This document shows positions 8,565-10,605 of a stretch of 33,885 bases of DNA, one piece after another. The first letter of the stretch is position 1. Every line of letters starts with the position of its first letter. The notes beneath the pieces are model-generated. The model saw only the letters and a list, made by a program, of their open reading frames with translations. It was not told where the DNA came from and ran no database searches. A program made the position numbers and the translations under genes. This DNA comes from an uncultured Bacteroidales bacterium (GTDB lineage: Bacteria; Bacteroidota; Bacteroidia; Bacteroidales; UBA932): positions 1-33,885 of the forward strand of contig ONOQ01000022.1 in the NCBI GenBank assembly GCA_900319485.1, written 5' to 3'.

Positions 8565-9700
8565 AAGATTATAGCAACGAATCAATCCAGTTCGACTGCT
8601 TCCGCGGCTGCACGGTAGTGACAGACGAGGAAACGGGAGAAAAAGATATACGCTACCGTCAGGGATGCTGCAAACTTGAGGTGTATGATACCCTTAAGGG
8701 CATAGCCCAGGAGCAGTGGGACGGCTACTTCGAGGTCCGTTTCAAGAACACCCGAAAGGGAATCTACGTGAACGCTTCCGGCCAGAGTATCAAAACCGGA
8801 GACCTTGTGGTGGTTGAGGCCGCAACGGGCCACGATTTAGGAATTGTAACCCTTGAAGGCCCCGTGGTTGCCCGCCAGATGAAGTGCAAGGGCGTTGATC
8901 CCTCCCAGCAGGAACTGAGGAAGATCTACCGCAAGGCGCGTCCCTTTGACATCCAGCGCTGGCAGGAGGCAATTGCCCGTGAGGAGGAGACTATGGTCCG
9001 CGCGCGCGTCCTTGCCGCCAACCTTGGCCTTGAGATGAAGATAGGTGACGTAGAATTCCAGGGAGACGGCACCAAGGCAATCTTCTATTACATTGCCGAT
9101 GGCCGCGTGGACTTCCGCCAACTTATCAAGGATTTTGCGGAGGAGTTCCATATCCGCGTGGAGATGAAGCAGATTGGCGCCCGCCAGGAAGCCGGTCTCA
9201 TAGGCGGCCTTGGCGTGTGCGGCCGTGAACTGTGCTGCGCCAACTACATAACGGAGTTCAAGTCCATCACAACCGCCGCCGCCCGCGTCCAGGACCTTTC
9301 CCTGAATCCCCAGAAACTGGCCGGCCAGTGCGGAAAACTAAAGTGCTGCCTCAATTATGAAGTAGCGGCTTACACCGATGCCCGCTCCCGCCTTCCCCGC
9401 GTTAACGAGCCTCTTGAACTTGAGGACGGCCAGGCTTTCCTTGTAAAGACGGACATCCTTGCCGGGATGCTGTACTTCTCCTATGAGAAGGGCTCCCTTG
9501 CAAAGGTTTATGGATTGTCGGCCGATGAAGTGAGGGAAATCCAGGCGATGAACCGCCGCGGAGAGCGTCCCGCCACGCTTCAGGAAGAGCCTGAGCGCTC
9601 TCCCGAGTTTATATCGGCCGTGGGTGACGATGCCATCAACCGGTTCGACCCTGAGAAGAAACGCAAGAAACGCCGCAAGAACAAGAAACGCCAGGCATAA
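8561..9700 (+). CDS. PSP1 / RicT-like (YaaT family) protein
   Basis: 379 residues. The central part has the PSP1 C-terminal domain with its Cys-rich signature GGLGVCGRELCCANY followed by GQCGKLKCCLNYE, as in Bacillus YaaT/RicT. Cysteine ligands could hold an Fe-S cluster or metal. In Firmicutes RicT acts with RicA and RicF in RNA processing and development; the Bacteroidota role is not established. The C-terminus is a strongly basic tail (KKRKKRRKNKKRQA), which suggests nucleic-acid contact (inference). It overlaps delta' by 4 bp and touches trmB by 1 bp, so all three are probably co-translated. The adjacency of holB and a PSP1 gene is recurrent in bacteria. Confidence 0.9.
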   Translation: MKDYSNESIQFDCFRGCTVVTDEETGEKDIRYRQGCCKLEVYDTLKGIAQEQWDGYFEVRFKNTRKGIYVNASGQSIKTGDLVVVEAATGHDLGIVTLEGPVVARQMKCKGVDPSQQELRKIYRKARPFDIQRWQEAIAREEETMVRARVLAANLGLEMKIGDVEFQGDGTKAIFYYIADGRVDFRQLIKDFAEEFHIRVEMKQIGARQEAGLIGGLGVCGRELCCANYITEFKSITTAAARVQDLSLNPQKLAGQCGKLKCCLNYEVAAYTDARSRLPRVNEPLELEDGQAFLVKTDILAGMLYFSYEKGSLAKVYGLSADEVREIQAMNRRGERPATLQEEPERSPEFISAVGDDAINRFDPEKKRKKRRKNKKRQA

Positions 9701-10605
9701 TGGGTCACGGAAAACTGAAAAAATTTGCCGAGAACGCTACCTTCCGCTGCCTCCTGCAGCCGGAGGCCTCTGCCGTGCTGGCTCCTAAGGCCCCCGGCTC
9801 CAAGGCTCTTGTCCTGAGGGATCATCCCATCAAGGGCAACTGGGGTAAGGAGATGTTCGGCAATGACCGTCCCATTGTCCTGGAACTTGGATGCGGCAAG
9901 GGGGATTATACCATAGCCCTTGCCCTGAGGCATCCAGAAATCAATTTTATAGGCGTTGACATCAAGGGCGCCCGCCTCTGGGCCGGAGCCAAATTCGCCA
10001 CGGAGAATAATCTTCCAAACGTTGCGTTCCTTCGCACCAGGATTGAGTTCATAGGCGCTTTCTTCGGGCCTTCCGAGGTCTCTGAAATCTGGCTCACATT
10101 CTCCGATCCCCAGTTACGCGGCTCTGAAAACGCCAGGCTCTCGTCACCTATGTTTCTGGAGCGCTACCGCGGCTTCCTCCGCCCCGGCGGTATAGTCCAT
10201 CTCAAGACTGACTCCAGGTATCTCTACGAATACACCCAGGCTGTATGTAAGGTCAATAACCTGAATGTATTCGCCTATGGTACAGATATTTATACCGACG
10301 GAGTACATGTCTCCAAACCGTCGGCTGCGCCGACCCCTCCCACTTCGTGGGCCCCTCCCTCTTACAAGGCCGAGGGTGGCCATGGGTTTGGAGACATGTA
10401 CCCCGTCGGCGAGGAAGTGACATCGGTGCAGACGTTCTATGAGAAGATGTTTCTGGAGATGGGGCTGCCAATAACGTATATGGCGTTTACGCTGGAGCAT
10501 GAGGGGGCATTTATCGGCCCCGGAGAGGCGTTTGACCACGATCATTGGCTTCAGGAGGAGGGCCCAAGACGTTCATTTTCGCATCAACCTAACAAAAAAC
10601 AGTAA
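9700..10605 (+). CDS. trmB: tRNA (guanine-N7)-methyltransferase with in-frame palindromic insertion
   Basis: 301 residues. The SAM-binding motif is VLELGCGKGDYT (residues 60-71), and FIGVDIKGARLW and EIWLTFSDPQ are TrmB signatures. The enzyme makes m7G46 in tRNA variable loops. The ATG at 9700 shares its A with the preceding TAA. Compared with what I recall of Bacteroides TrmB, the segment between TDIYTDG and EEVTSVQTFYEKMF should be only a few residues. Here about 36 residues (202-237), rich in Pro, Gly and Ser, are inserted and are encoded by a 115-bp inverted-repeat element. The insertion lies after the catalytic core, before the C-terminal helix, so activity may be retained. The C-terminal tail (HWLQEEGPRRSFSHQ) also looks atypical. 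Confidence 0.93.
   Translation: MGHGKLKKFAENATFRCLLQPEASAVLAPKAPGSKALVLRDHPIKGNWGKEMFGNDRPIVLELGCGKGDYTIALALRHPEINFIGVDIKGARLWAGAKFATENNLPNVAFLRTRIEFIGAFFGPSEVSEIWLTFSDPQLRGSENARLSSPMFLERYRGFLRPGGIVHLKTDSRYLYEYTQAVCKVNNLNVFAYGTDIYTDGVHVSKPSAAPTPPTSWAPPSYKAEGGHGFGDMYPVGEEVTSVQTFYEKMFLEMGLPITYMAFTLEHEGAFIGPGEAFDHDHWLQEEGPRRSFSHQPNKKQ
10295..10409. repeat. Palindromic element inserted in the trmB coding sequence
   Basis: Outer arms 10295-10319 and 10385-10409 are inverted repeats of 25 nt with one mismatch (core GTACATGTCTCCAAACC). Inside lie a perfect hairpin GTCGGC-TGC-GCCGAC (10320-10334), a second hairpin CCCAC-TTC-GTGGG (10339-10351) and a weaker CCCTC/GAGGG pair (10357-10361 with 10372-10376). 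The folded form would be a cloverleaf-like structure. The trmB frame stays open through it. It resembles in principle the Rickettsia palindromic elements that insert in genes, but I know of no name for this one. Confidence 0.85.

Follow-up and report, generated by a model that had tools for sequence, protein, structure and literature searches.

The stretch of DNA analysed here (the window, 33,885 nucleotides) carries an open reading frame for a TrmB-like protein that is interrupted by a 115-nucleotide element with the outline of a cloverleaf (Table 1). As the initial annotation of this sequence had proposed, the insertion is in frame: the reading frame remains open through the element, and its product matches Methyltransf_4. 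The arms of the outer stem (P1) are 25 nucleotides long, lie 65 nucleotides apart and pair at 24 of 25 positions (96% complementarity), and folding of the + strand as RNA gives a predicted energy of -72.9 kcal/mol (z = -9.3), which was equalled by 0 of 200 shuffled sequences. The proposed size and inverted arms are therefore confirmed. Two internal triloop hairpins had also been described, GTCGGCTGCGCCGAC (H1) and CCCACTTCGTGGG (H2). Both are found in the fold of the complement, but the minimum-energy fold of the + strand shows only H1.

Beyond these hairpins, the element contains a conserved linker and a third hairpin (H3), and the linker nucleotides CCCTC (10357-10361) are complementary to the H3 loop. 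A pseudoknot between the two is possible, based on co-change between subtypes as read by eye. The outer part of the P1 5′ arm is probably native trmB sequence, as its codons match the orthologue residues DIYxxG. The word CATG is strongly under-represented in the window (25 occurrences versus 129.6 expected from base composition), and three of these fall within the element, two of them as mirror images in the arms. The counts that had been read as a hint of foreign origin thus hold, but we judge the argument built on them to be weak.

Table 1. Features of the trmB locus, in window coordinates.
Feature	Coordinates	Strand	Basis
trmB-like host ORF (301 aa) with the element inserted in frame	9700..10605	+	ORF list, translation, Pfam Methyltransf_4 (E 5.3e-23)
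Whole element: stem P1 and core	10295..10409	+	arms, fold, covariance-model match
P1 5′ arm	10295..10319	+	inverted-repeat detection
Hairpin H1, loop TGC (GCA on the complement, C-GNA-G type)	10320..10334	+	sequence
Hairpin H2, loop GAA on the complement	10339..10351	+	sequence; length and sequence vary among copies
Conserved linker CCCCTCCCTCTTA	10352..10364	+	alignment A1
Hairpin H3, loop GAGGGT	10365..10384	+	alignment A1, pairing statistics
P1 3′ arm	10385..10409	+	inverted-repeat detection

Comparison with three element-free orthologues (L042, L043 and L050) indicates that the element adds ~29-33 residues to TrmB rather than the ~36 residues estimated originally. By hand count, 47 residues separate DIY/DVY from VQTFYE in the window's protein, versus 14, 15 and 18 residues in the orthologues. 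Solved TrmB structures align only to residue 183, which is short of the insert. Modelling places the insert in a disordered loop, although the model is of low confidence (mean pLDDT 48.7) and the insert is its worst stretch. Among related TrmB proteins, the element may be absent, read in another frame, present in the opposite orientation or replaced by other repeats. Conservation of the segment as protein in all related TrmB sequences, with no DNA copies elsewhere, would have spoken against a mobile insert; the opposite was found, as evident by a variable TrmB and by copies dispersed through the genome.

Several additional arrangements were observed at trmB. In one allele (L038, genome G037), a cloverleaf appears to be broken by an element from another subtype, with a TGTCAT repeat after it and the frame again kept. 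In two related genomes, the trmB element is accompanied by a second one ~1.1 kb upstream (the 973 and 2102 region of L281; L036 and L037). The trmB of L035 contains in-frame GGACCAGGTCCA / GGACCTGGTCCA arrays, and TGTCATTTCGAGC / TGTCATCCTGAGG repeats occupy the cloverleaf gene site in the trmB of L032, L038 and L044.

A search of the window's own genome with the element sequence yielded 12 other hits (E <= 5.4e-10, 79-98% identity), which establishes the element as a dispersed repeat. We built an alignment (A1) and a covariance model (R1) from 18 elements, comprising 12 own-genome copies (including that of the window) and six from the trmB regions of four relatives. When 150 of 540 first-look candidates were scored, R1 found 25 matches in the own genome at E <= 1. 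By eye, these matches sort into subtypes A (that of the window), B, C and D (76 nucleotides), which share a similar layout and differ in sequence. The family spans ~75-150 nucleotides plus a stem of ~27 base-pairs.

Matches to R1 were present in all 13 genomes of the genus picked for closeness of TrmB, in all four closer species (32, 27, 35 and 18 matches) and, under strict filters (E <= 1e-8), in 192 of 250 genomes of the genus. Across the order, only four of 393 genomes had matches, namely the window's own, one from another genus of the same family and two from other families; two other members of the genus included in this 393-genome scan gave no match. An exact-pattern scan of GTDB r220 contigs returned at least 117 stretches, and the 80 loci among the matches listed are all titled as uncultured or metagenome-assembled Bacteroidales or Bacteroidia, many from the rumen.

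We scanned the overlapping ORF of 20 of the 25 own-genome copies against Pfam with a cut-off of 1e-5. Eighteen of the 25 copies lie in a Pfam-matching ORF, all 18 of which are open through the element, and the ORFs at L078 and L082 had no Pfam match at this cut-off among the 20 scanned. The hosts match Methyltransf_4 (TrmB), Mur ligase, DAP epimerase, Radical_SAM_N, FAD synthetase, TilS-type ATP_bind_3, CYTH, MurB, Thump_like, NAD-dependent DNA ligase, MFS, Pterin_bind, TruB, TruA-type PseudoU_synth_1, bacterial A2M, prephenate dehydrogenase, DNA polymerase A and Ala_racemase_N, and gene names such as murE are ones that we presume by recognition. The TruB gene is hit by subtype C. The LigA copy (L071) is near the C-terminus of its host, and the copy at L072 is at a contig edge and so may lie at or before the start of the gene. 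This dispersal inside housekeeping genes suggests that the element is mobile DNA able to enter active genes and leave them functional.

The 18 matched hosts carry the element in both orientations (11 sense, 7 antisense) and in differing reading frames. A protein-level adaptation, in which the inserted peptide is itself the selected entity, would gain from the recurrence in several sense copies of the frame that yields WAPPSYxAEGGHGF. However, other frames and antisense readings occur, even within TrmB, and the stem covaries as DNA, which makes this explanation highly improbable.

For a broader view, 82 matches in the 80-locus set were examined, of which 73 were usable and nine were too close to an edge. 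Of these 73 copies, 52 are surrounded by an ORF of 150 codons or more, compared with 87.4% of random windows. Copies thus fall within long ORFs somewhat less often than random windows do, so that no preference for genes is evident and insertions in them are tolerated rather than preferred. Judged by the longest ORF, 31 of the 52 copies are sense and 21 are antisense, with the linker in the three phases in 16, 9 and 6 sense hosts and in 13, 8 and 0 antisense hosts. Cores free of stop codons in all three sense frames make up 56 of 73, versus 30% of shuffles. Such cores might ease life inside genes, but the copies share descent and this excess is only suggestive.

To follow individual insertions, 14 sites were compared across four close species (G180, G184, G223 and G125). 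A single site can be empty, can hold the same core, the inverted core or another subtype, or can hold other repeats. The core is inverted at one site in DapF, MurE and TruA, and another subtype is found at one site in TilS and CYTH. Arrays of GGACCAGGTCCA replace the cloverleaf in TilS and in a Thump-like gene, and TGTCATCCTGAGG repeats do so in MurE and TruA. The empty sites in relatives that the mobile-element proposal called for were thus seen, including element-free TrmB and CYTH sites.

Length differences were measured relative to the window's genome, omitting seven of 55 rows in which a flank is missing. The 12 coding sites gave 41 comparisons, in which the length was equal in 13, differed by a multiple of three in 27 and differed otherwise in one (LigA of G184). 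A multiple of three thus accounts for 27 of the 28 length changes within coding sequence, compared with one of seven at the two non-genic sites. Several of these differences stem from other repeats in the site. Because frame is kept at coding sites and not at non-genic sites, these alignments indicate that the inserted stretch is translated rather than removed, adding ~30 tolerated residues where the host protein is variable. The multiples of three also argue against splicing, cleavage or bypass of the transcript. The exceptional ligA allele of G184 (L217) has partly lost its element near the C-terminus, with a length change of -7.

The fold is conserved among copies whose stems differ in sequence. 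In A1, 95.6% of 720 cells are paired, with 181 changed on both sides, a result reached by 0 of 500 shuffles; controls with slid partners reached only 26.6-42.6%. Among 67 copies, 1630 of 1742 cells at stem positions 1-26 are Watson-Crick, and the outer stem is low in information from position 25 outward. The outer two base-pairs of H3 are Watson-Crick in 80 of 82 matches and occur in six pair combinations. By hand count, the trmB elements of G180 and the window are identical at 45 of 45 nucleotides from H1 to the linker and differ at 10 of 25 and 9 of 25 positions in the arms, which are still paired. Among 13 copies from three other genomes (G426, G374 and G456), five with and eight without a spanning ORF of 150 codons, stems are much more alike within G426 (seven of seven) and G374 (three of four).

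The deviations from perfect pairing are one-sided. Stem mismatches comprise 91 cases of C without G and 16 of G without C, and this bias is independent of host direction (30:5 in sense hosts, 26:5 in antisense hosts and 35:6 with no host ORF, versus 135:144 in a flank control). Read on the complement, the C-type mismatches become G.T, G.A and G.G, which are better tolerated in helices. Opposite an A of H3 that is fixed by the search pattern, C occurs 52 times, T 25, A 4 and G 1 (n = 82), or T.G or T-A in 77 when read on the complement. On that strand, the H1 loops conform to C-GNA-G in 40 of the 44 cores that could be parsed, the other 21 of 65 cores having another form of H1, and GNA loops are very stable DNA minihairpins. 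H2 loops are mixed, with 14 clear GNA triloops and TT as the commonest loop (10 copies).

These copies therefore share a four-way-junction fold with a long stem that is paired in a copy-specific manner and whose deviations are one-sided irrespective of host direction, and the strand selected for folding seems to be the complement. Folding energies favour the complement with both RNA (62 of 65) and DNA (56 of 65) parameters, and so cannot separate the two polymers. The main reason for reading the fold as DNA is that the strand bias does not depend on which way the host is transcribed, from which we infer that one folded DNA strand is the form under selection. The bias could instead reflect a one-sided mutation process acting on DNA. 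The mixed H2 loops count against a fold of one DNA strand, as does the orientation of copies, which showed no lagging-strand bias when assessed by GC skew (32 of 71 positive).

A strong covarying fold with a possible pseudoknot is also what favours an RNA element that acts in the messenger, whether regulatory or self-removing (intron-like, ribozyme or translational bypass). We consider this very unlikely, given that the element occurs in both orientations among the 18 hosts, that frame is kept at coding but not at non-genic sites, that the strand bias is independent of host direction and that no Rfam family matches. With Rfam 15, the window gave only MIR838 (E 0.071; 22.1 bits, where the cut-off is 190) and HBV_epsilon (E 3.2), hits that are attributable to chance, and the other loci tried had no match at or above the gathering score.

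The CYTH gene, the only site with a close empty comparison, provides a view of the insertion target. Twelve genomes of the genus are insert-free, with 18-20 residues from KTR to EVDEF. In G221 and G180 this interval is 19 residues long and carries a perfect palindrome, TTCCGGAGG-CCTCCGGAA, that contains no element. Subtype A is located exactly in the middle of this palindrome in G000 and G223, G125 has another subtype, and G184 has a degenerate remnant. A target duplication had been sought in the original proposal, but no direct duplication was found at the CYTH site, which is instead a short palindrome. Hairpins with 8-bp arms and 5-nucleotide loops are similarly present at the MurE site of G077 and G051, the latter of which has one R1 match.

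The palindrome at CYTH could be a scar of element loss, a reading to which the remnant-like allele of G184 lends some weight, but the parity in length with empty sites favours a palindrome that predates insertion. Comparisons of trmB had given rise to another possibility, that the 5′ flank was duplicated in inverted form during insertion. We place this behind a palindromic target because the CYTH palindrome occurs in two relatives at empty-site length and hairpins occur at the MurE site in two genomes.

Enzymes of the Y1 (RAYT) type are candidates for a mobiliser, as they use strand-specific folding of single strands (PMC6006769). The own genome has nine matches to the transposase family searched for this role (Y1_Tnp), five of them over the cut-off, and some are flanked by palindromes. 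The Y1 gene at L023 (contig C78) has a 44-nucleotide palindrome on both sides, that at L025 (C57) has tandem GTGCGGGAGATGTGACGG-type repeats downstream and that at L026 (C46) has GGACCTGGTCCA repeats on both sides. However, none of the own-genome Y1 flanks examined carries the cloverleaf. Of 38 Y1 loci, only two lie within 1.5 kb of a cloverleaf, versus ~1.5 expected by chance (30 copies per 2.4 Mb), and none is flanked on both sides. Moreover, G374, G426 and G456 carry the element and have no Y1_Tnp match at E <= 0.05. RAYT as the mobiliser is thus unsupported, and we regard movement by such an enzyme as quite unlikely.

Spread might instead proceed with no dedicated enzyme, through template switching and homologous recombination between copies or species, with quasipalindrome errors making and re-making the palindromes. 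Template switching is known to create and maintain perfect stems (PMC8794818), and the copy-specific paired stems, the cores inverted at one site and the chimeric RibF and FolP alleles of G184 (L191 and L221), in which two different elements seem to have recombined inside the core, are all in keeping with such events. However, this process would not easily place one core at dozens of unrelated loci, and it leaves the conserved loops and linker unexplained; as a full account of the spread it therefore seems unlikely.

We favour, with a probability of roughly 0.6, a family of non-autonomous palindromic elements of one Bacteroidales genus that persist in genes and are moved as folded single-stranded DNA. 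A single DNA strand would fold, as in single-stranded DNA transposition, and insertion would be favoured at short palindromes, whose halves would become the outer stem. Hairpin-templated repair by template switching would then keep the drifting arms complementary, so that each copy would come to have its own stem, and insertions that break the frame would be purged by selection. It is a more tentative proposition, which we hold to be less likely than not, that the combination of a folded-strand four-way junction, GNA triloops, a possible pseudoknot, insertion at genic palindromes, use of target halves as stem and paired drift amounts to a distinct class of mobile DNA.

By analogy, the element is best read as working like Rickettsia palindromic elements (RPEs), the best-known case of in-frame palindromes in genes. 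RPEs are described as palindromic, ~150 base-pairs long for the kind first reported, inserted in frame in unrelated protein genes and translated (PMC10969869; PMC3733652), with RPE-1 hitting TruB in R. conorii (PMC3733652). The likeness, one of behaviour, lies in a palindromic insert that keeps the frame of unrelated protein-coding genes; the differences are the Bacteroidales host, the four-way-junction core, the copy-specific stem and the use of both orientations. The suggestion of a Bacteroidota counterpart to the Rickettsia elements is thus upheld as regards in-frame insertion, but published examples extend beyond Rickettsia: intragenic REPs have been described in several phyla, with hosts that include DNA ligase, DNA polymerase I, TruA and TruB (PMC3733652).

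All four of these hosts are shared with the present element, which resembles GTAG/CGTC REPs in being palindromic and partly located in coding regions. However, REPs are single hairpins of 20-40 base-pairs with an unpaired GTAG/CGTC tag at the end, and the present element has 100-170 nucleotides and four helices, with its CGTC paired at the foot of H1. Folding of a single DNA strand and strand specificity are features it probably has in common with IS200/IS605 and REP/RAYT systems (PMC6006769); unlike these and the REPtron, it showed no association with Y1 genes, and none of the 38 Y1 loci has it on both sides. The Bacteroidetes RAYT subclass 2.6 is described as flanked by atypical structures (PMC6006769), to which the cloverleaf might be related. 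MITEs are likewise short, non-autonomous and dispersed with inverted ends, but the present element has no constant terminal repeat in the genus (stems are more constant in G426 and G374) and no direct target duplication at CYTH, a single site. Our search of the open-licence literature found no description of it.

Intragenic palindromes of the RPE and REP kinds are already in print. In a genus where most sampled genomes carry the element, with many copies in housekeeping genes, the empty, filled, inverted and replaced alleles of close relatives constitute a natural experiment on how selfish DNA lengthens functional proteins. Owing to the strand bias, the form that transposes can be put to the test as a folded single strand of known polarity. 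There is also a warning for annotation, in that insertions restricted to one lineage and otherwise unexplained may, in such proteins, be repeats rather than domains.

Other repeats share these sites. In-frame GGACCAGGTCCA / GGACCTGGTCCA arrays, like those near the Y1 gene of L026, are found in tilS (L195 and L197) and in the Thump-like gene (L212 and L213). The TGTCATTTCGAGC / TGTCATCCTGAGG repeats are present at the murE (L180) and truA (L229) sites and, together with those in trmB, are perhaps of the CGTC (TGTC) REP type; CGTC-type REPs, for which no transposase is known, are reported in Bacteroidetes (PMC3733652). In a RibF-like ORF (L065, 1283-1984), a second in-frame repeat, read as CHSERSPKGGVEESP, is located just after the cloverleaf.
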